Below are positions 1,153 through 64,000 of a stretch of 64,000 nucleotides of DNA, in pieces. The notes below the pieces were generated by a model that saw only the letters and a program-made list of their open reading frames with translations, searched no databases and was not told the DNA's origin. Positions within the stretch are counted from its first letter, which is position 1, and each line of letters starts with the position of its first letter. A program made the position numbers and the translations under genes. Source of the DNA: a virus; the IMG/VR virus record IMGVR_UViG_3300036770_001423, positions 30,297 to 94,296 of that record; one strand, given 5' to 3'.

Positions 1153-2058
1153 CTATGTGCTGTTCTCATTTTGCTGGGACTTGACCCACTCAGTGGCTTG
1201 CCTAAAAGCTTCTTCTTCACCAAGCCTATACACATTGAATGTTTTGCGTTTTTTATTTCCGCACATCATTTTGTACGCAACGTAGTGACCTTTTTTATTT
1301 AAATGGACATTCATTGCCTCTGTTTTTGTGTACCTTGCTGGTTTTGTTTTATCATACTTCCCAAATCGTACAAGGTAATGGTATATAAAATCTTGAAGTT
1401 CGGAGTCTTGTGTTGGGTCATACCCTTCAGAAAAGCGTCTGAATAGTGCCTTATAATTAGTTGACCTGTTCAAATTCAGTGCATTACTTATACGATAATG
1501 TTTATACCCTTTCTTATAAAGATGGTATATATCGTTGGCGAGGGACAACACATCCTTATTAGAGTAGGGAGAGTTGATTAGGCTGAAAGATTTCATCACC
1601 TCCGACCTAGCAACCCTCTCTGTTTCTGGAACATCCCTATTCTTCAGCTTTTCAACCATATGTGATGTGTCTACAGGTATTCCTCTTCTCATTGCAGATA
1701 CTACTGATTTTTGCTTGTCGGTTTGTGGCCTACCTAGCCTACCATTCAGTCCACCACCGACACAAATATTCCATCCAATTAGAGGAGCTGGTCTTAGTTT
1801 ATTCTCTAACCATCTGGCGTAATCAAGATCACATTCACACAGGACAACTAACTCAATGTCGTCCCCATATTTAACCATTGCTCTATGAACTATGCCAATA
1901 GAACTGGCTTTTTGCTTTTCGCCATTTTTCAGTTTCTTAGCAACTCGAAGATGCGTTGAGTACCTTCGCTTTACACTACCAGATGTTATACCAACATAAC
2001 CTTCTGTATTTATATCAGTATGGTCTTTGTGTTTTATCCAGTATACAAAAGAACTCAT
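1153..2058 (-). CDS. GIY-YIG homing endonuclease
   Basis: The 301-residue product begins with a GIY-YIG nuclease core: VYW near residue 5, GYVGITSG near residue 20, then a conserved arginine/histidine stretch (KRRYSTHL), with ELVVLCE and a W-E-L-R (RWLENKLRP) helix following. The C-terminal half (GRLGRPQTD, NALNLNRSTNYKALF) looks like a minor-groove and helix-turn-helix DNA-binding region typical of these enzymes. It sits exactly between portal and protease, with its ATG overlapping the portal stop (ATGA). It is free-standing and interrupts a conserved head-gene pair, as expected for an intergenic homing endonuclease. Confidence 0.85.
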   Translation of the reverse strand: MSSFVYWIKHKDHTDINTEGYVGITSGSVKRRYSTHLRVAKKLKNGEKQKASSIGIVHRAMVKYGDDIELVVLCECDLDYARWLENKLRPAPLIGWNICVGGGLNGRLGRPQTDKQKSVVSAMRRGIPVDTSHMVEKLKNRDVPETERVARSEVMKSFSLINSPYSNKDVLSLANDIYHLYKKGYKHYRISNALNLNRSTNYKALFRRFSEGYDPTQDSELQDFIYHYLVRFGKYDKTKPARYTKTEAMNVHLNKKGHYVAYKMMCGNKKRKTFNVYRLGEEEAFRQATEWVKSQQNENST

Positions 2059-3575
2059 CCTTTGTTTTCCATATTCAAACTGCTGTTATTCTTACCAGCA
2101 GCACCAGTGCCGTTACCCATACCTTCGACCATGCCGTCACCACTGCGAGTAGTCATGTCACTAAGCTTCTCAATGATTTCATCTTCATCAAGCTTCTCAA
2201 TCTCTGTAGTGTCATAACCACACTTACGCCACAGTTGAACAAGCATTGCTTTGTCTCGTGGGAATAAGCCTGTAGCGCCTAAGCGTTGACCAGCTTTAGA
2301 AGCTTCTTCAGCATCAGCTTCATCCAGCTCACCAAACGTCATCACTGGCATATCATCTTCTTCAAGCTTAAGCTCATTAATGTCTGCAAGAGACTTAACA
2401 AACTCACGCTCAAATACTGTTTTGATATACATCAGCATACGTTCCATGTAGAAAGCATGGACACTGCGACTACTATCTGATAGACTATGTGAACCTGTAT
2501 CGCCTTGACCAACCAGAAGGAAGGAAGCGCCTAATACGTTAAGAATGTCTTTCTTACGAGCTTCAATTAGTTCAGAGGTTTTATAGGCTTTACTACCACC
2601 GTCAACACCTTTCAGTTCAACATCATAAACGTATTTACCGTTACCTGTTTCACCGTGTGTATCAGAGCCTAAGAGGATATATGTTTGATCGCCAGCATGA
2701 ATAGCAGCAGCATTCTTTTGTAATGCTTTTAATGTGGCAGCTTCAAGACTATTTTCATCTTCAGCAGCTTTATTGATATGATCATTCGGAACACGTAATA
2801 CAAGGACACCACCCAAGTCCTTGCTCACCCCAACAACCTCATAGCTTGTAATCATTTCAAGCTCTTTCCAAGATTTGAAGCAGTCGTATAGATCTGATTT
2901 ACCTTGGGGGTTGTTGCCTGTACTATTCCAACTGAACAACATAAACTTTTCTCTACGAACAAATTTATCTGTTAAGTTTTGTACAGTGAAAGGGTTAATA
3001 TTGCTTTGTCCAATGACTGTAGCTGGCATCCATTGATATAAACCAACTAAGTCTCGCTTCAATACAGCATCATCAAACACCCACTCACGAACACTCTTTT
3101 GAGCGCGAGGAGCAAGCTTTGCATATTTGTATTTATATTTACCAGACCATTTAATACTATCATTCTTTGCGAAGACTTTCTCAAGCCAAGCAAATCCGTA
3201 TTTACGGAATGTGATAATATTTGTGATGGCATCATACCAACTGTTACCGACAAAGTTCTTAATGTTCCAGTTTAAGAAGGCAGCAAAGTCTTTTGACTCT
3301 TGACTTCCCGATACACCTGCGATAAACTTTGTAGCAAGTAGGGACTTGGTGAGGAATACTTCTCCAGCAGTTAATCCTTGACTAACAGCAGAAGTAGAAG
3401 CCATCTTATCATATGTGGTGAGGCTATGAGGAAACTGCAATTCTTTCTTAGCAGATTCTTCGATGTAGCCACCGATGGCTTTTAGATATGGATTGCCGAT
3501 CTCTCCTAAGCGAAGACGACTGTCTGAGCTAGAGGGATTAGATTCAGCTTTCTCAATTTGAATTGTTTCTGACAT
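2055..3575 (-). CDS. portal protein
   Basis: This 506-residue protein sits directly after the large terminase and before the protease. It has the features of Mu gp29/DUF935-like portals: an N-terminal segment with conserved 'NPYLKAIGGYIEESAKKELQ', a hydrophilic crown region, a central 'FRKYGFAWLEKVF' strand, and a long C-terminal helix-rich region with SLSDSSRSVHAFYMERM. The C-terminus is Gly/Asn-rich (MVEGMGNGTGAAGKNN). It forms the dodecameric ring through which DNA is packaged. The start is supported by an AGGGGATAA-type ribosome site just upstream. The call rests on gene order plus this pattern. Confidence 0.8.
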   Translation of the reverse strand: MSETIQIEKAESNPSSSDSRLRLGEIGNPYLKAIGGYIEESAKKELQFPHSLTTYDKMASTSAVSQGLTAGEVFLTKSLLATKFIAGVSGSQESKDFAAFLNWNIKNFVGNSWYDAITNIITFRKYGFAWLEKVFAKNDSIKWSGKYKYKYAKLAPRAQKSVREWVFDDAVLKRDLVGLYQWMPATVIGQSNINPFTVQNLTDKFVRREKFMLFSWNSTGNNPQGKSDLYDCFKSWKELEMITSYEVVGVSKDLGGVLVLRVPNDHINKAAEDENSLEAATLKALQKNAAAIHAGDQTYILLGSDTHGETGNGKYVYDVELKGVDGGSKAYKTSELIEARKKDILNVLGASFLLVGQGDTGSHSLSDSSRSVHAFYMERMLMYIKTVFEREFVKSLADINELKLEEDDMPVMTFGELDEADAEEASKAGQRLGATGLFPRDKAMLVQLWRKCGYDTTEIEKLDEDEIIEKLSDMTTRSGDGMVEGMGNGTGAAGKNNSSLNMENKG

Positions 3576-7694: not shown

Positions 7695-7770
7695 CTCTTT
7701 AAAAAAAAAAAATAAAAGCCCCGTTACGACGAGGAGAGGTGTGCAGAGGAGGATGCACCATCGTAGCGGG
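7695..7770 (-). terminator. Rho-independent terminator, minus strand
   Basis: On the minus strand, CCCCGCTACGAT pairs with CGTCGTAACGGGG across a purine/pyrimidine-rich spacer and is followed by CTTTTATTTTTTTTTTTT. It lies after the gene at 7877-8239 and before the gene starting at 7670, so it would end or attenuate the small-terminase transcript. Confidence 0.8.
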
Positions 7771-11877: not shown

Positions 11878-13929
11878 ATGTCAATTAATAAATTAGTTGC
11901 TGATTACAAAGGTAGTCCTAGTAACAGTAAAGGTAGTAATATCAGGGATGCTGTGAACCAGCTGATTGACGCGCATGTATCGCACCTGAAGTCGCTTCCT
12001 GTCGCTGCTAAGGCGCAGACGGATACGGTTTATAACGTGATTGGGTTCTATGCTGGCAGCACCAAAGGTGGTAGCCGGTTTATTTACGACCAAAACATGT
12101 CAAAAGCCATGCACAATGGCGGCACTGTAATAGCGCCTGAAGCACTGGCAGCGTGGAGTGGAACACATGCTGACTTGACCACGCTTCTGGTGTGGTATGG
12201 TACAGGTTCTGGCTGTTATGTCTCAATAGAACAAAATATAAATGCCGCCATGTTTGGTGCGGTCTGTGACGGGACGTTAGACGATGTGCAATCAATTGAA
12301 GCTGCCTTTAACTTTGCTAACACACTTATAAATGGAAGTGTGACACTTGGTGCATATCACAGAATAAGCCGTTCTATTAAATTCAGAAAGTATGTAACTG
12401 TAATCGGAAATGGCAGCTGGATTCTGAATTACGGGACAGAAGATGCTTGTATTCCGCATCCTGACGACGGAATAGTTCTGGCAAGAGTAAGCGGATTCAA
12501 TATCACTTATCAGAACTACGGATCTCCTTTGAACCCAAATAGCCCACCATACACAGTTGATAAAACAAAAAAGCTGGGTAATCAAATAGTATGGTCTCAT
12601 ATGTCAACTTTCATAGCTGACGGTCTAAAACATTCATCGTCAGGAAGGTACTTCCAAGACTTCGAGCGGATCAATGTTTACTGGCATCGATACGGATTTC
12701 ATATGCTTGGCTGGACAATTCAAGGCAGAAACTGCCGTGCTCTATACAACGCGAGAGGTTTCTTTGGGTCTAACGCTGCCATTAATTCCGTCAGATACCC
12801 TGTTCACGCACTACAGCTTAATGATTGTCACGCGATAGCGAACACCGAAAACGGGGTAGATATTCGGTTCGCCGACGGCGTCAATCTGAAGGGCTGTCAC
12901 AGCGAAAAAAACTATTCCCGCAATATCAGAGCTGAAGGTGTCCGTGGGTTAACACTAGATCAGTTTTATCAAGAGTATTCGGACGGCAGTATCTTACTGT
13001 TTAACAGTCAGGGTGTTGATATTAATGGATACAGCTCTGGGAACAGACAAGTTTACAAAGGTTATGCTAAATCAGCTCAGGCATACTACGAAGAAACGAT
13101 TGTTAGCGGCACCTCGGTAAATGTAACGGCATATAACTCCAGTACCAAAATCGGTATTGATAACTTCGACAGTGTACCCACAGCTGAAATTGCTGTAATC
13201 AGAAATGATGGATATTTACCACCAGCTAACTGGTCAAGGTCAAGCTCAACTATCACGGTACCGTCTGCGGTCGCCGGTGATGTTATATCGGTTATTGCAT
13301 ATGCCTACAGAAACCCTGCGGTTGACCTTGCTGCGATCCAAGACAAATACGAGCTTGGTGCGAACTATCCGCTTGAGGTTCAGCACGCCCAAAACGTCCA
13401 GTTTGGCGGCTTTGTCACCAGCTATCGCACAGGTCCTGCGCTGACCAACGATTTTGATTTAGCGAACCTCGCCGCCAGTAAAGATATCTATTACAACGCA
13501 TTTCTGAAAGACACTACAGTATATAATGTCCCAAGCATGTATTTTCCGTGGGGTACAGGTTTTGCTCTAAAGCAGAATTTCAACAGAGGCTTGGTGATAA
13601 AGAACGATACAGACCCAAATGTTGAAGTCAGCTTTACAGGAACGCAGCACTATCCACAAAGTGGTCAAGTAGGTACGATATCTCTGCCCAACGCAAATGC
13701 TACACTTTTCATGGTGATTTCTGCAAATGGCTGTGCAATGTTCACATTTGACGGTAACGGGTCAATTTATCCTGCCGCTGTTTCAGGACAAAACTACACA
13801 ATACAGCAAACGAATGCGGCTACAGCTAACAAGTTAAACTTGTATAGTGCCGGGGCCAACCTGTTAGGATTTGATAACAGGCTCGGGTATGCTACTCAGT
13901 TCACACTTTTACGACTATCTGATAATTAA
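11878..13929 (+). CDS. tailspike protein, right-handed beta-helix (probable polysaccharide depolymerase)
   Basis: The 683-residue protein has a helical N-terminal attachment part (residues ~1-50) and then a small domain also found in other tailspikes (VYNVIGFYAGSTKGGSRFIY ... TTLLVWYGTGSG). After that comes the pectate-lyase-like entry motif AAMFGAVCDGTLDDVQSIEAAF (~residues 123-143), the FGAxxDGxxDD signature. A long repetitive beta-helix follows (GRNCRALYNARGFF, NDCHAIANTENGVDI, GVNLKGCHSE), then a C-terminal beta domain. It would bind and probably cleave a capsule or O-antigen. By eye its bases are richer in G+C and its codons differ from flanking genes, which suggests receptor-gene exchange. 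It is separated from other virion genes and on the opposite strand. Confidence 0.88.
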   Translation: MSINKLVADYKGSPSNSKGSNIRDAVNQLIDAHVSHLKSLPVAAKAQTDTVYNVIGFYAGSTKGGSRFIYDQNMSKAMHNGGTVIAPEALAAWSGTHADLTTLLVWYGTGSGCYVSIEQNINAAMFGAVCDGTLDDVQSIEAAFNFANTLINGSVTLGAYHRISRSIKFRKYVTVIGNGSWILNYGTEDACIPHPDDGIVLARVSGFNITYQNYGSPLNPNSPPYTVDKTKKLGNQIVWSHMSTFIADGLKHSSSGRYFQDFERINVYWHRYGFHMLGWTIQGRNCRALYNARGFFGSNAAINSVRYPVHALQLNDCHAIANTENGVDIRFADGVNLKGCHSEKNYSRNIRAEGVRGLTLDQFYQEYSDGSILLFNSQGVDINGYSSGNRQVYKGYAKSAQAYYEETIVSGTSVNVTAYNSSTKIGIDNFDSVPTAEIAVIRNDGYLPPANWSRSSSTITVPSAVAGDVISVIAYAYRNPAVDLAAIQDKYELGANYPLEVQHAQNVQFGGFVTSYRTGPALTNDFDLANLAASKDIYYNAFLKDTTVYNVPSMYFPWGTGFALKQNFNRGLVIKNDTDPNVEVSFTGTQHYPQSGQVGTISLPNANATLFMVISANGCAMFTFDGNGSIYPAAVSGQNYTIQQTNAATANKLNLYSAGANLLGFDNRLGYATQFTLLRLSDN

Positions 13930-27883: not shown

Positions 27884-28102
27884 ATGGATTTATTTATTTT
27901 ATATGTTCTACCTGCTTTACTTACAATCGTGATATGTGGTATTGATTCCTACCGGAGAGGTGCCGTTACGGTCGGTGAGGTGGTAGGTACTGTAATACTT
28001 GCTGTAATACCGATATTTAATATTCTTTTCGTAATATGGGCTGTTTTGGATGAACTCAGTATGAGGGGATTATTATCTAAAACACTTTGGAAAAAGAAAT
28101 AG
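27884..28102 (+). CDS. membrane protein, 72 aa
   Basis: Two transmembrane helices (LFILYVLPALLTIVICGI and VVGTVILAVIPIFNILFVIW) with a basic C-terminus (KTLWKKK). GGAGGAATAATT precedes the ATG. Function unknown. Confidence 0.65.
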   Translation: MDLFILYVLPALLTIVICGIDSYRRGAVTVGEVVGTVILAVIPIFNILFVIWAVLDELSMRGLLSKTLWKKK

Positions 28103-28123
28103 TAATAATTTGAGGAGAGAAGT

Positions 28124-28321
28124 GTGAGTGATCTATCTGAAATACATACTGAAAGTATTAGCTTGCATTCAGCACAGCAACATTTTGAGAGCAATAAACA
28201 ATTTGAAGAATTTGCTAAGAAGTGGAATTATGATTTATCCACAGATGAAGAAGGGTTCTACACGAATAGCCTTACACAAAGATTGTGGGATTGTTGGGAA
28301 GAAAGTCGGAGGGCGAGATAA
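28124..28321 (+). CDS. hypothetical protein, 65 aa
   Basis: GTG start after GAGGAGAGAAGT. A helical acidic protein (SAQQHFESNKQFEEFAKKWN) ending in a basic SRRAR. The overlapping +1 frame of similar length has no ribosome site and was not taken. It is adjacent to the next gene without a gap. Confidence 0.6.
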   Translation: MSDLSEIHTESISLHSAQQHFESNKQFEEFAKKWNYDLSTDEEGFYTNSLTQRLWDCWEESRRAR

Positions 28322-32594: not shown

Positions 32595-32622
32595 AGCCAA
32601 GCTTTTTTTTGGCTTGGCTTTG
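32595..32622. terminator. long perfect hairpin
   Basis: AAAGCCAAGC-TTTTTTTT-GGCTTGGCTTT: a 10-11 bp inverted repeat with a T8 loop. It may work as a bidirectional terminator. Confidence 0.65.
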
Positions 32623-56487: not shown

Positions 56488-56702
56488 AGTTTGTTCGTTG
56501 TCAAAGTGTCTTTAACGTATTCTCTGCTACACAAGAAGAAATCGAATTAATCCCTAAAGAATGGATTTTACCATCAAGAGAAGCTAATCCACATATTGTG
56601 TTGCTAGGCAATGAACGTGAGCAAGATTTTATTAGAACAATGTCTAATTGTTCTGAAGATGAACTTTATACGGATTACTATAGAATTGAGGTGACTGAAT
56701 GA
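56484..56702 (+). CDS. hypothetical protein, 72 aa
   Basis: A small mixed protein (KFVRCQSVFNVFSATQEEIELI) with an acidic end. ATGA coupling to the exonuclease gene. No family is recognised. Confidence 0.6.
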   Translation: MKFVRCQSVFNVFSATQEEIELIPKEWILPSREANPHIVLLGNEREQDFIRTMSNCSEDELYTDYYRIEVTE

Positions 56703-57892
56703 GTAAAGAAGACCAACACTTGTTACACTTATCTAATAAAGTGAGACAGCTTGAATATTTGTTAGAACAATCAGAAAAAGAGAATAAGCGACTCAAACGT
56801 ATTCTTGCGGAATTGAGTTTTGATGCAAAGAACTGGCTTGCTAAGCTTGGGAGAATTCAGATGAATACAATTTTAATTATAGATGGTGATGAACTAGCTT
56901 ATGTTCATGCTGCTGCTGCGGAACAACAACTGCTCGTATACAAGAATACTACTAACGGTTTTGAACACGGATTTAAGAATAAAACAGAGTTTGGTAAATT
57001 CATGTCAGGACTAACTGTTCCGGAAGATATGTACACTACAGAACTCAAACGTGTACCTGAACCAAAACAAAACGCTTTTAGTACAGTGAAAAAGAAGTTA
57101 TTATGGTTACAGAACAAATTCAATGGCGCTGCTATTGAGATTTATATTTCTGGGGACAATAACTTCCGAGATTCTTTACCTTTACCGAAACATCCAGACC
57201 CGAGCAAGTCTGGACAGTACAAAGGTCAACGTGACCCCGATACCAAACCTCTGTTACTGAACGACATCAAAGACTACTTATTCAAATACTGGAATGCTCA
57301 ATTAGTGAATGGTATGGAAGCTGATGATCGTTTGTGTATGCGTGTGTACGAAGGTTACTTGAACAAAGACGGTGATAAAATCATTGGCTTGACTCAAGAC
57401 AAAGATCGTCTTGGCAATATGGGTTATTGGTATGACTATATGAATGACACAGAAGGTAATGGTCAACCACAGTTCATTGACGGTTTAGGTAAGCTGTGGT
57501 TGGATACATCAAAGAAAACACCTAAGTATACAGGTGAAGGTAGGAAGTGGTTGTATTGGCAATGGATTGTTGGTGATCCAGTAGATAATTATAACCCGCG
57601 AGATGTTGCCACATCATTAGGTTTAAAGTTGAAACGTTTTGGCGATAAGACAGCTTTTGATTTGCTCGAACCGTTACAATCAGACAAAGAATGCTTCCAA
57701 GCTGTACATGATTTGTATCTGTCTTGGTATGGTTCTGATAAGTTTAAATACACTGCTTGGGATGATGTGGAACATGAAGTAGATTATATTGACATCATGC
57801 AGTTGTATTTCGATTGCGCTAAGATGAAGCGTTTCGATGATGACAACGTTGATGTTCGTGCAGTGTTGAAGAAATTAGGAGTGATTAGTTGA
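56699..57892 (+). CDS. 5'-3' exonuclease (flap/RNase H type)
   Basis: The 397-residue protein consists of a ~54-residue coiled-coil start (HLLHLSNKVRQLEYLLEQSE) and a PIN-like 5'-nuclease. The nuclease shows MNTILIIDGDELAYVHAAAA (first Asp), WLQNKFNGAAIEIYISGDNNFRD, LVNGMEADDRLCMRV (acidic cluster), IIGLTQDKDRLGN and WIVGDPVDNYNPRDVATSLG (helix-hairpin-helix). It removes RNA primers and flaps. An internal ATG at 56861 with GGGAGAATTCAG could give a second, shorter form without the coiled coil. Confidence 0.85.
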   Translation: MSKEDQHLLHLSNKVRQLEYLLEQSEKENKRLKRILAELSFDAKNWLAKLGRIQMNTILIIDGDELAYVHAAAAEQQLLVYKNTTNGFEHGFKNKTEFGKFMSGLTVPEDMYTTELKRVPEPKQNAFSTVKKKLLWLQNKFNGAAIEIYISGDNNFRDSLPLPKHPDPSKSGQYKGQRDPDTKPLLLNDIKDYLFKYWNAQLVNGMEADDRLCMRVYEGYLNKDGDKIIGLTQDKDRLGNMGYWYDYMNDTEGNGQPQFIDGLGKLWLDTSKKTPKYTGEGRKWLYWQWIVGDPVDNYNPRDVATSLGLKLKRFGDKTAFDLLEPLQSDKECFQAVHDLYLSWYGSDKFKYTAWDDVEHEVDYIDIMQLYFDCAKMKRFDDDNVDVRAVLKKLGVIS

Positions 57893-58940: not shown

Positions 58941-59307
58941 TATTAGTGATTTAGATGTGTGGGTAATTCGCCACAAAGAAACTAAGGAAATTATTAAAGT
59001 ACCTTCTGGGAAAACTTCTTGGCGTAAACAAAACCATGCTAAGTCTGCTTGGGCTACTTTTGGTGATTCTTACCGGGGTATCGAAGAACGTTCAAAAACT
59101 TTAGGTGTAAAACTGATTAAAGGAGATTACGGTTTTAGGTTTCCGAAATTTGATGAGCAAGATGTTTATGAATTGGCTAGTGTGAAATCTTTAAATAAAG
59201 ATTTGTTTGAGAAGTTACAACAACTGTGTGAAGAATGTATTGATTACTTACCTGAAGCAGTAAAGCAAACATATATTACCAAATTAAAGGAAATCACTAA
59301 TGACTAA
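58933..59307 (+). CDS. hypothetical protein, 124 aa
   Basis: GTG start after AAGGAGTTAATGC. The N-terminal half is basic (VWVIRHKETKEIIKVPSGKTSWRK, HAKSAWATFG), of a type seen in small phage proteins. The C-terminal half is helical (LNKDLFEKLQQLCEECIDYL). It overlaps the next gene by eight bases. Confidence 0.6.
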   Translation: MTNISDLDVWVIRHKETKEIIKVPSGKTSWRKQNHAKSAWATFGDSYRGIEERSKTLGVKLIKGDYGFRFPKFDEQDVYELASVKSLNKDLFEKLQQLCEECIDYLPEAVKQTYITKLKEITND

Positions 59308-60274
59308 TATTAAACGTAAAGAGTGGCACAATAAGGTTGACGAGTTATTAGCTGCTGGTGTACAGTCAGGTAGAACGATTGCTAAGATGTTAGGTCGTGG
59401 AAAGAGTCAAGTTAACAGTTACATCAGTAGCTTAAAACGCTCTGAGAACGATTCTGAGGCGTTATCTCAGCCGAAAGGTGCTAAGGTGTTATTCTTAGAT
59501 CTAGAGGTTTCTGCTTCGATTGTAGCGGCGTTTTCAATGTTTAAGCACTTCAGCTCACCAGATCATATTATCCAGTTTCCATATGTATTGACATATGCGG
59601 CTAATTGGTTACATGACCCTGAAGACAAGATTGAATGTTTTGGTCTGGATGATTTTGAAACATTTGAAACAGATCATCGGGATGATTTTGAATTAATCTT
59701 ACGTCTGTGGAATTTGATTGATAATGCTGACATCGTTGTTGCTCAAAACGCTCCATTTGACACAGGATGGTTCAACCAACGTTGTGCTTATCACAACTTA
59801 CCTGAACCAAGTCCGTATCGTGTTGTAGATACGTTGAAGGGTATGAAGAAGTCGATGTCGTTACCAAGTAATAGTCTTGGATATACAACAAAGTATTTTA
59901 ACCTGCCTCATACGAAGTTACATAACGAAGGTATTTCACTGTGGATTCGTTGTATGGATGGTGACAGAGAAGCTCTCAGTCTGATGAAATCTTATAATAT
60001 TGGCGATATTCCAACATTACGTGAACTGTATTTGAAGATTCGTGCGTTCATTCCGAACCACCCGAATGTTGCTTTGTATTTCGGTGAGTCAGACCAGATG
60101 CGATGCCCTACTTGTGGTGGAACACATCTTGACTTGTTAGAAGGGAAAGCGTACACTAACCTCAGTGTGTTCGATGCTTATCGTTGTAAAGATTGCGGCA
60201 CTGTGAAGCGCTCAGGTATCTCGACAACGACTACAGCAGAACGTAAGCTGCTATTGAGACAAGTGAGTAAATAG
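59300..60274 (+). CDS. DnaQ/RNase H-like 3'-5' exonuclease with HTH and zinc ribbon
   Basis: The 324-residue protein has an N-terminal helix-turn-helix (SGRTIAKMLGRGKSQVNSYIS, ~21-41). An RNase H-fold exonuclease of the YprB-like type follows (GAKVLFLDLEVSASIVAAFS with DLE, ~60-80; DIVVAQNAPFDTGWFNQR, ~148-165; KSYNIGDIPTLRELY). A C-terminal zinc ribbon (MRCPTCGGTH, YRCKDCGTVKRSG) closes it. It may proofread or process DNA or RNA ends. The HTH plus ribbon suggest sequence- or structure-guided use. Confidence 0.8.
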   Translation: MTNIKRKEWHNKVDELLAAGVQSGRTIAKMLGRGKSQVNSYISSLKRSENDSEALSQPKGAKVLFLDLEVSASIVAAFSMFKHFSSPDHIIQFPYVLTYAANWLHDPEDKIECFGLDDFETFETDHRDDFELILRLWNLIDNADIVVAQNAPFDTGWFNQRCAYHNLPEPSPYRVVDTLKGMKKSMSLPSNSLGYTTKYFNLPHTKLHNEGISLWIRCMDGDREALSLMKSYNIGDIPTLRELYLKIRAFIPNHPNVALYFGESDQMRCPTCGGTHLDLLEGKAYTNLSVFDAYRCKDCGTVKRSGISTTTTAERKLLLRQVSK

Positions 60275-60275
60275 T

Positions 60276-61070
60276 ATGAAGGTTGTGGTGAATGAAAATT
60301 CTTTCATGATACCTGAAGTATGGGAGGTAGTGGGTGGTGGTTCACACCCATTAGTTTCTTGTACGTGCAGATTGTGTGGCACCAAAAAAGATGTAGATGC
60401 TTGGGCGTTGAAATCTGGAGCAGTAAGGTCTTGTGGATGTCTGAGAAGCTTAGTCCCAAACAAGGATATTACAGGTTTGGTGACTGATTCAGGTGTCACT
60501 GTATTAGGCTACATTGGAAATTCTATTTGGAGAGTACAATACACTTGTTCTCATTTATCGGATGTTCCATCACACCTTATTCACCAGAACAAAACAGGTC
60601 TGTGTGATCGCTGTAGTAAGTCTAAAACTTGTACAGACAGAAACACATCACATGGTATGAGTGGGACTCCAGCATACAAGTCTTGGTTGTCGATGAAAAG
60701 ACGTTGTTATTCTCCTAGTAATAACCGTTATGAGTTTTACGGCGGTAAGGGGATAGTTGTATGCGATAGGTGGTTGGAGTCTTTTGAAAACTTTTATGAA
60801 GACATGGGTGATTGTCCTGCTGGTATGAGTATAGATAGAATTGACACAGCAGGTAACTACGAACCATCAAACTGTAAGTGGTCTACTGTGATAGAACAAG
60901 CCAATAATAAGACAAGCAACCTATTGTTTACTGATGGTGAACAGGTTTGGAGCTTGAGAAGGTGGTGTGACATATTCGGTAAAGATTACAAACATGTTTG
61001 GTATAAATACAGAACTTGTGGTTTACCAGTCGAACTCTTGTTTGACGGTAAAATAAAACCAGTAGCTTAA
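60276..61070 (+). CDS. HNH homing endonuclease
   Basis: The 264-residue protein begins with a zinc part (SCTCRLCGTKKDVDAWALKS, RSCGCLRS). It then carries a well-known homing pattern: SHGMSGTPAYKSWLSMKRRC, YEFYGGKGIVVCDRWLESFENFYEDMG, GMSIDRIDTAGNYEPSNCKW (~residues 125-215). A C-terminal DNA-binding helix ends it (WSLRRWCDIFGKDYKHVWYK). It starts one base after the exonuclease stop and fills the gap before the next promoter. Mobile gene. Confidence 0.85.
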   Translation: MKVVVNENSFMIPEVWEVVGGGSHPLVSCTCRLCGTKKDVDAWALKSGAVRSCGCLRSLVPNKDITGLVTDSGVTVLGYIGNSIWRVQYTCSHLSDVPSHLIHQNKTGLCDRCSKSKTCTDRNTSHGMSGTPAYKSWLSMKRRCYSPSNNRYEFYGGKGIVVCDRWLESFENFYEDMGDCPAGMSIDRIDTAGNYEPSNCKWSTVIEQANNKTSNLLFTDGEQVWSLRRWCDIFGKDYKHVWYKYRTCGLPVELLFDGKIKPVA

Positions 61071-61098
61071 TTTATTAAGCTAATACCTAAACAAACCC

Positions 61099-61156
61099 TT
61101 GACACAGGAATTGAAGTTGTGTAGAATAAGAGCCTGACAACACGTTCCTGTGTCAA
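61099..61156 (+). promoter_or_regulatory. promoter whose -35 is one arm of a 12-bp inverted repeat
   Basis: TTGACA (61099-61104), 17 bp and TAGAAT (61122-61127). TTGACACAGGAA (61099-61110) is perfectly repeated inverted as TTCCTGTGTCAA (61145-61156). The whole -10 and start site lie in the loop; the right arm is in the mRNA leader. Confidence 0.8.
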
Positions 61157-61173
61157 TAATGAGGGGAGAAATT

Positions 61174-61867
61174 ATGAGTGAATTAAAGTTTCCGTTTAAG
61201 TTTCGTGCATTTGATTCATACCCAATTTATACGGCTAAATATTCTGAGAAATATTATGTTGAAATTTCTTGGTACAATGACGAAGGTGAACTCAGAACAC
61301 GTATGTATAATTTAGCAGATGTTGCAGAAAACGTAGCAAGAAATATATGGCGGATAGAAAAGCCTGATCAAACAGACCCTGACGTAACCATCAAGCAATC
61401 TGAAGTAGATGCTTATGTTGACGAAATCAACATGCTTCGTGAGCTTGTTGCTGAGATTACATTAGAAGCAGACGTCAATTCATTAGAACAGCAAGCAGAA
61501 GCTTTCCGTGTTCTTAATGATAAGATGCTTAGTCATCAGTCTTACAAACAGGGAGATGGTGGTTCTACACGAATCGGTGAATTGTCGAAGCAACTGGATA
61601 CGTTGTTTGCTGCATATGATAGTTTGGCTGGTAAACAGAAAGAACAAACCTTCAAACCAATTTCAGAAATGACTCTTGAAGATTGGCAACAGGCTTTGGA
61701 AGAAGGTGCTGTGTTTGAATATCATGATGGTTCTACGCTAACTGTATTGGAAGTAAATACCATATTTTTTTGAACCACGTATAGGTTTCCAAGAACAGGC
61801 GTTTCTTTTCAGTAAAGACGGCAGTAATTTGGAAAGCGGTTACAGAATTAAACGTCGTATTAAATAA
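61174..61867 (+). pseudogene. hypothetical gene with a frameshift in a T7 run
   Basis: The start (MSELKFPFKFRAFDS) follows GAGGGGAGAAATT. The frame stops at 61773, right after seven T (61764-61770 region). Skipping one T keeps the frame open to 61867 with coding-like sequence (FEPRIGFQEQAFLFSKDGSN). So the intact protein would be about 230 residues: N-terminal mixed part, coiled coil (INMLRELVAEITLEADVNSL) and the lost tail. Sequencing error, recent mutation or programmed slippage are all possible. No family is recognised. Confidence 0.65.
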
Positions 61868-61877
61868 GGAGAGAATA

Positions 61878-62300
61878 GTGAACGAATTACAACGAACTTT
61901 AGAGTGGTTTCAGTTAGCCGTACCTAACCCGACAGACAAGAATAAATCTGTTCAGGTAGGGTGCTTCTTTGAGGAAGTTTCAGAAGTAGTCGAAGCATTA
62001 GGAGATTATTCATCCCAATATGGACTGATAAGTGACATGGCACATGACTATAAAACCTATGAGGGTAAGATTCACCTGACCCCACAGCAACGCCTTGAGT
62101 TATTAGATGGACTTTGTGATGTGATTGTCACTGCTGTAGGTGTAGCCCATATGTTTGATATGGATATTCTCGGCGCTATGTCAGAAGTTAATCGTAGTAA
62201 CTTTAGTAAGTTTGTTGATGGTAAACCCGTGTTCAACGAACAAGGTAAAATTGCTAAACCAGTAACATTCTCCCAACCTAATCTGGAGCAGTTCGTATGA
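61878..62300 (+). CDS. MazG-like nucleotide pyrophosphohydrolase
   Basis: GTG start after AAGGAGAGAATA. The 140-residue helical protein has QVGCFFEEVSEVVEALGD (E-E-x-x-E, ~residues 27-44) and ELLDGLCDVIVTAVGVAHMF (D-x-x-x-D, ~72-91), the metal-binding helices of the all-alpha NTP pyrophosphatase superfamily. It ends in the phage-type EVNRSNFSKFVDGKPVFNEQ. It would hydrolyse (d)NTPs or phosphoribosyl-nucleotides, cleaning nucleotide pools or lowering ppGpp. Confidence 0.85.
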   Translation: MNELQRTLEWFQLAVPNPTDKNKSVQVGCFFEEVSEVVEALGDYSSQYGLISDMAHDYKTYEGKIHLTPQQRLELLDGLCDVIVTAVGVAHMFDMDILGAMSEVNRSNFSKFVDGKPVFNEQGKIAKPVTFSQPNLEQFV

Positions 62301-62499: not shown

Positions 62500-63192
62500 T
62501 TGGAAGTAAAACATTTTAAAGATAAGTTAGAAGTTACCGCAATCGGCATCACCACACCTCTAGTAGATTATATTCCAGATAGCGAAGGTTTAATCAGTTA
62601 TCAGGCTCGTGTCAGCAATGAAGGGACTCAACTAGAATTTGAGACAGCGGATCGCTTATTAGCATACTGCGCTCGTATGGGTCATTGGTCTATCTTTGAT
62701 ATGTCAAACTTAGTCATTGAGATTAAAGCCCCTCGTGATATTAGTCGTCAAGTGTTGAGACATAGTTCGGCTAAGTTTCAGGAATTCAGTCAACGGTATG
62801 CCGATGTAACAGATGATATGTTCTGTCTGCGAGAGTTACGTAAACAAGATACGAAGAATCGTCAGAACTCAATCGCCGGAGCATTTACGTCAGAGGAAGA
62901 AGCTGAATGGTACGCTGATCAAGAAGAAGTTATTCAACTGATTCAATCTAAAGTTAAGAAGTGGCGCAGCCGTGATGCTGCAAAAGAATGCACTCGTGTA
63001 TTTATGCCGGAAGGTCTTACCATGTCAAAGATGTATATGAACGGGACTGTTCGCACTTGGATTCATTACACAGGACTTCGTAAGAAGCGTGGAGAGACAC
63101 AAGCTGAACATTGTGATGTAGCTGATAAGTGTCGTGAGTATTTGTTGAAACACTTCCCTGCGTTGTGTAAAGTATTAACGGAGCAACAATGA
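62500..63192 (+). CDS. thyX: flavin-dependent thymidylate synthase
   Basis: TTG start after AAGGAGAGTAGTT. The 230-residue protein matches ThyX: LISYQARVSNE, LLAYCARMGHWSIFDMSNLV, and the signature ISRQVLRHSSAKFQEFSQRY (~residues 80-99). It ends RTWIHYTGLRKKRGETQAEHCDVA (substrate-binding Arg/His/Gln). It makes dTMP from dUMP with FADH2 and methylene-tetrahydrofolate. In the RHRx7S motif the second Arg is Ser here (RHS), a variation worth noting; the final Ser is kept. Confidence 0.92.
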   Translation: MEVKHFKDKLEVTAIGITTPLVDYIPDSEGLISYQARVSNEGTQLEFETADRLLAYCARMGHWSIFDMSNLVIEIKAPRDISRQVLRHSSAKFQEFSQRYADVTDDMFCLRELRKQDTKNRQNSIAGAFTSEEEAEWYADQEEVIQLIQSKVKKWRSRDAAKECTRVFMPEGLTMSKMYMNGTVRTWIHYTGLRKKRGETQAEHCDVADKCREYLLKHFPALCKVLTEQQ

Positions 63193-63763: not shown

Positions 63764-64000
63764 TTAGTTCAGTAACTAAGCGTAACGGTGAAGTGGTCCC
63801 GTTCGACACAGACAAGTTTAATCGCTGGGCTGAATATGCAACAGAGGTTGGTGGTAATTGGTCAGACATCGCATTTGAAACTTATAAGAAACTGACAGAT
63901 AAAATCTCTACGATTGACATTCACCAAACGATGATTGATGTTTGTATTGACAAAGAGACTCTTGAGTATAGTCGTGTAGCAAGTCGTTTAGAGTTTGCTA
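63760..64000 (+). CDS. nrdA: ribonucleotide reductase large subunit, N-terminal part (runs off window)
   Basis: The frame from ATG at 63760 is open to the end (80 codons). It begins with an ATP-cone allosteric domain: ISSVTKRNGEVVPFDTDKFN, IDIHQTMIDVCIDKETLEYS. That, plus the NrdH neighbour, identifies it as a class I-type ribonucleotide reductase alpha subunit reducing NDPs to dNDPs. Only the start is visible, so class and completeness cannot be judged. Confidence 0.85.
   Translation, partial: MISSVTKRNGEVVPFDTDKFNRWAEYATEVGGNWSDIAFETYKKLTDKISTIDIHQTMIDVCIDKETLEYSRVASRLEFA

Follow-up and report, generated by a model that had tools for sequence, protein, structure and literature searches.

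Several described systems combine a stop codon, a slippery run and coding sequence in a second frame. In the programmed +1 frameshift of prfB, slippage before UGA is helped by a Shine-Dalgarno-like stimulator at a distance of about 3 bases, and in the related shifty-stop idea a ribosome slips before a waiting stop codon. The term 'shifty stop' appears in PMC5009743. In Citrobacter rodentium tssM1, as presented in the available part of PMC4256274, transcriptional slippage occurs at A11 and both products are needed. A GeneTack survey describes singleton indels and, in the part of that paper available (PMC3711429), a frameshift near the 3' end of a gene is held likelier to be an indel mutation than one at another position. 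Here we compare with these systems a small phage gene that loses its frame at a run of seven T. The window, meaning the whole 64,000-nucleotide stretch analysed, covers positions 30297-94296 of an IMG/VR virus record 94,296 bases long (G000). The ends of this record share 127 bases (window 63874-64000 = L015:1-127), so the contig probably maps a full circular genome of about 94,169 bases.

A frame break at seven T and the sequence beyond it

The frame-broken gene lies between genes with recognizable products, as follows.

59300-60274: DNA polymerase exonuclease subunit (family match)
60276-61070: HNH endonuclease (family match)
61099..61127, plus strand: sigma-70-like promoter, TTGACA-17-TAGAAT, 11/12 consensus bases
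61174..61773, plus strand: truncated ORF of 199 aa, accessory phage protein without assigned function, TGA right after the T run
61651..61694, plus strand: linker conserved at the DNA level (FKPISEMTLEDWQQA), preceding the variable C-terminal module and within the Barba-matched region
61765..61771, plus strand: seven-T run, point of frame loss, sole T7 on the plus strand of the contig
61772..61867, plus strand: 31 codons and a TAA in the +1 frame, a tail homologous to what relatives encode in frame as their C-terminus
61865..61873, plus strand: tail-frame TAA adjoining the GGAGAG ribosome site of the next gene (from sequence)
61878..62300, plus strand: next gene, MazG-like nucleotide pyrophosphohydrolase (phrog_671, E 2e-33)
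62500-63192: product similar to phage thymidylate synthases (best 57.8% identity)

The gene starts at ATG 61174, with GTG 61150 in frame upstream, and the ORF list yields a protein of 199-207 aa in which the tail is missed; the break bears chiefly on annotation. The frame break is real in the given sequence: the T of the stop TGA (61771-61773) is the last T of the run, and from GAA 61772 onwards no stop interrupts the +1 frame until TAA 61865-61867. An earlier note on this DNA had described a loss of frame at T7 with intact coding sequence beyond, which both ORF coordinates and homology bear out, although it placed the run one base low, at 61764-61770. Its estimate that skipping one T adds about 31 residues corresponds to exactly 31 codons, and the extension does end, as it had said, just before the next ribosome site, with the TAA abutting GGAGAG.

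Openness of 31 codons by itself is weak evidence for coding, since 225/3224 off-frame stretches of that length in nine neighbouring genes were also open. Homology is decisive. The homologue in the nearest relative (genome G001, locus L003) is a single-frame protein of 225 aa that splits over two window frames, with residues 1-199 matching at 66% and residues 193-225 at 73% (E 2e-10 for the second-frame match), and 23/31 tail residues are identical between the two. Compared with the same relative, dN/dS was 0.24 in the tail, an estimate from 31 codons only with both lineages summed, and 0.32 in the C-terminal module before the break, 0.08 in the middle and 0.39 at the N-terminus. The sequence after the break is undecayed, and these values argue against long decay and for a genuinely coding tail that has been under purifying selection until recently. 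Dual coding of the tail was considered and dropped, as synonymous divergence there was not reduced (dS 0.65, against 0.59 in the middle and 0.39 in the module before the break).

The read-through protein matched no significant Pfam or PHROG family (best Pfam E 0.03, 15.3 bits with a cut-off of 27; best PHROG E 0.12), and structure prediction for the L003 protein (5 rows) was poor, with a mean pLDDT of 53.8 and a pTM of 0.26. Comparison among relatives gives a layout of a variable N-terminal domain, a middle, a conserved linker and variable C-terminal modules. The middle is well conserved in L003, L004/L005 and L006-L008 and mostly absent from L014. The gene is accessory, and its layout mosaic. 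Allowing up to 3 mismatches, no second copy of the linker was found in the window, and none of the protein in G000. Between window 61174-61880 and its relatives, what varies is the N-terminal domain, the C-terminal module and the next gene, while short stretches between these are conserved at the DNA level, as if they acted as recombination joints.

Upstream of the gene, a perfect 12-base inverted repeat (TTGACACAGGAA / TTCCTGTGTCAA, 61099-61110 / 61145-61156, 34 bases between the arms) brackets the -10 box of the promoter, and the -35 box opens its left arm. The left arm recurs exactly in 2/6 related loci searched (L004 and L014) and nowhere else in G000; the repeat may serve as an operator or form a leader hairpin. 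An Rfam search of window 61000-62000 returned one match, STnc361 on the minus strand (E 0.75), whose 22.9 bits fall below the gathering score of 80 and which we took as chance.

Relatives in IMG/VR and in Barba phages

Protein searches of IMG/VR recovered the gene on 8 contigs, carrying 5 distinct sequences (L003; L004=L005; L006=L007=L008; L014; L032). In all five, the gene end is read in one frame with no internal stop or shift, so that intact homologues exist in every distinct relative, and none of the five carries a T run at the break position. The comparison with relatives that the earlier note had suggested thus gave unshifted genes and a conserved tail in 5/5 cases; the pattern it had named as contrary, a stop conserved at the same place in relatives with no conservation downstream, was not found, and the opposite was seen.

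L003 is the nearest relative, with 85.5% DNA identity over 511 bases. At the break it reads GTATTTCGAGAACC where the window reads ATATTTTTTTGAACC, that is, 14 bases without a T run as compared to 15. Identity of the C-terminal module to the window is 76% for L003, 54% for L006 and L004, and 35% for L014, and over the full length of the tail no relative but L003 is close. The stop of the gene abuts the GGAGAG of the next gene in L003, L004/L005 (where it is TGA), L006-L008 and L014 but not in L032, and the window retains this abutment in its +1 frame. A different T7 lies within the same gene in L004/L005, where the frame passes across it unbroken, so T7 per se is no shift site.

Two DNA pattern scans and the IMG/VR protein searches, whose output may leave out near-identical records, yielded no near-identical second genome with the shift; the matches of the pattern scans were two unrelated stretches and the contig of L003 again. 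Alignment of the C-terminus against bacterial and archaeal genomes gave no relative in 200 candidate stretches, and a protein search of the short form against 50,697 phage records gave no match at E 0.01.

Searched with E up to 10, the read-through form matched 112 records, all of them from Barba phages (best E 0.02). These Rheinheimera phages, of the genus Barbavirus, carry the linker in 112 records, with 80.2% DNA identity over 80 bases among the matches listed. A protein search with L032 also found 112 Rheinheimera records (best E 4e-4), plus, with E up to 10, 2 records of Pelagibacter phages. In the Barba homologue gp007, TGA (L001:2534-2536) replaces the linker Trp of the relatives, followed by CAA and with 59 open codons beyond. 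We read this TGA directly in 5/5 records from 4 Barbavirus species (barba18A, two records; barba5S; barba8S; barba21A), and because identity among all 112 Barba records is 99% or more in this region, it is most simply one event. TGA is also the stop of two of seven neighbouring Barba genes, and the usual code therefore holds there. The gp007 TGA could possibly be a readthrough site or a simple nonsense mutation.

Origin of the frame break

With the frame break, the coding tail and the unbroken frame of the relatives in hand, the missing T run and shift in 5/5 relatives point to a lineage-specific frameshift rather than a conserved programmed site. We consider it likely that this is a recent one-base frameshift at the T run of a small accessory gene, and an ordinary truncating mutation. 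A one-base slip at the run, probably by slippage during replication, would have occurred recently in this phage lineage and would now be a real allele in the sampled population. The product would be a 199-aa protein missing the final 31 residues of the C-terminal module, a loss that may be tolerated as the gene appears accessory and modular. A counterpoint is that one genome only carries the shift. The earlier note had left recent mutation, programmed slippage and sequencing error unranked; the first of these fits best, with the relatives unshifted and free of the run, a conserved programmed slip went unsupported, and sequencing error is the less likely reading.

Homopolymers are classic sites of indel errors, and a miscounted T run would mean that the true genome has an unbroken gene. 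The position of the break at a homopolymer, its singleton status, the lack of decay in the tail and the source of the sequence, an IMG/VR virus record, all count in favour of such an error. The ends of the contig, however, are identical over exactly 127 bases, with no other border length below 5000, and the relative G005 has the same 127-base border. Such a border is the mark of a circular genome in a short-read de Bruijn assembly at k=127. In the consensus of such an assembly a T7 miscount is rare, and a homopolymer miscount at this site is therefore unlikely. By contrast, in the available part of PMC3711429, singleton frameshifts with BLASTP protein support are expected to be sequencing errors, not genuine indels, although a break near the 3' end weighs the other way there.

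The lack of other indel-split genes in ORF comparisons with two relatives also speaks against a miscount. When the ORFs of relatives were matched to the contig (124/172 from G005 and 51/71 from G001 found matches), a single split turned up apart from the frame-broken gene, and it lacked the look of an indel: the G005 ORF at window 5229-3591 (minus strand) is divided by a 238-base gap at 31-39% identity and resembles two genes. In the reverse direction, window ORFs gave 3 splits in G005 (121/168 ORFs matched) and 1 in G001 (49/168), all four of which were explained without an indel in a gene. One is due to a group I intron in G005; one, against G001, involves window ORF 56699-57892, where a stop was lost by substitution and no indel occurred; one is an A12 leader difference relative to G005 that falls before the likely ATG of a minus-strand gene; and the last is an antisense ORF (27949-28194) opposite two intact plus-strand ORFs, both also present in G005, with the one-base difference from G005 falling between the two. 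That none of these four splits involves an indel in a gene slightly lowers the odds of an error, which we regard as improbable, if the strongest of the alternatives.

The same comparisons yielded further observations on the contig. The intron (RF00028, 80.6 bits) lies at L022:12808-13028 of G005 and interrupts the homologue of window gene 2055-3575 (minus strand), which has no intron at that position. Window ORF 56699-57892 (397 aa) fuses two ORFs that are separate in G001; near the junction the window has CAG before an ATG (MNTILIIDGDE) where G005 has TAG, which indicates that a stop codon was lost by substitution. Other A/T runs of at least seven in the contig are A12 at 7701, in the leader of a minus-strand gene and within a mechanical upstream extension of its ORF; A7 at 12905, inside an intact 683-aa ORF; and T8 at 32603, outside the listed ORFs. 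The A12 run (7701-7712) adjoins a terminator-like GGGGCTTTTATTT stretch and G005 has 8 bases fewer in the alignment there, with nearly identical flanks.

If the run were leaky or programmed instead, RNA polymerase would omit one U in copying the T run, or a +1 slip of the P-site Phe-tRNA (UUU to UUU, with UGA in the A site) would take place, and a fraction of the product would be full-length. The sequence TTT TTT TGA is slippery in the required sense, as on UUU UUU UGA the tRNA can re-pair perfectly in the +1 frame ahead of the stop. The upstream sigma-70-like promoter, with its 11/12 consensus bases, makes transcription by a host-type polymerase plausible, although the 3 promoter-like sites of the region are not above shuffles (mean 3.1). 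According to the figures available from PMC6260861, slippage by E. coli RNA polymerase is undetectable below seven T, and rescue by insertion reaches 5% at T7 and 10% at T8, with rescue by deletion at 10% at T8. The direction needed here is base loss whereas the T7 figures are for insertion, which slightly lowers the odds of slippage.

The constraint still seen in the tail would fit slippage, but a recent mutation accounts for it. None of the five distinct relatives has the run or a shift at the site, so that the site itself is not conserved, and L004/L005 pass another T7 of the same gene in a single open frame. Neither kind of stimulator sought was present: no Shine-Dalgarno-like element lies about 3 bases upstream, since GGAAG, the nearest, is separated from the P-site codon by 14 bases, and mononucleotide shuffles fold just as well as the 80 bases at 61778-61857 (z -0.5, for simple downstream folds). 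A programmed function of the T7 site is thus not supported by the sequence, and we give leaky or programmed slippage very little credence, even though some leak of full-length product is likely on general grounds. Were leaky slippage true, the locus would illustrate, on a small scale, how recoding lets a phage tolerate an indel. We find equally hard to credit the broader idea that leaky sites interrupt this gene family repeatedly (UUU UUU UGA here, GAU UGA CAA in Barba), in which case most of the product would be short and a little would be a long form that includes the C-terminal module.

That run length switches between phage generations, turning the gene on and off among virions, is the most remote of these readings: a homopolymer does sit at the break in an otherwise conserved gene, but a contingency tract of only seven bases would be short, none of the relatives found carries a tract at the break position and no second allele was seen.

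Comparison with known systems

The locus resembles prfB in its U-rich P-site codon followed by UGA and in the +1 direction, and differs in having neither a Shine-Dalgarno-like stimulator at the right distance nor conservation of the site. With tssM1 (from the part of PMC4256274 available) it shares a stop right after an A/T homopolymer and C-terminal coding in another frame, but here the run is of 7 T and the relatives are without it. The singleton indels of the GeneTack survey, as far as the available part of PMC3711429 describes them, come closer: a single genome, no conserved site, a protein validated by homologues and a position near the 3' end. Unlike those, ours is a phage gene of no known family, with conservation tested in five relatives. 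On present evidence this modular phage gene would carry a private mutation.

Rheinheimera phage Barba gp007 (MK719701 and others) offers a parallel within the family. It has the homologous linker near mazG, glutaredoxin and thymidylate synthase genes, and its ORF is likewise cut short. Its break differs from that of the window gene in being an in-frame TGA for Trp at a different position, and its origin is therefore independent. That the C-terminal module has been truncated twice, independently, suggests that its loss is tolerated.
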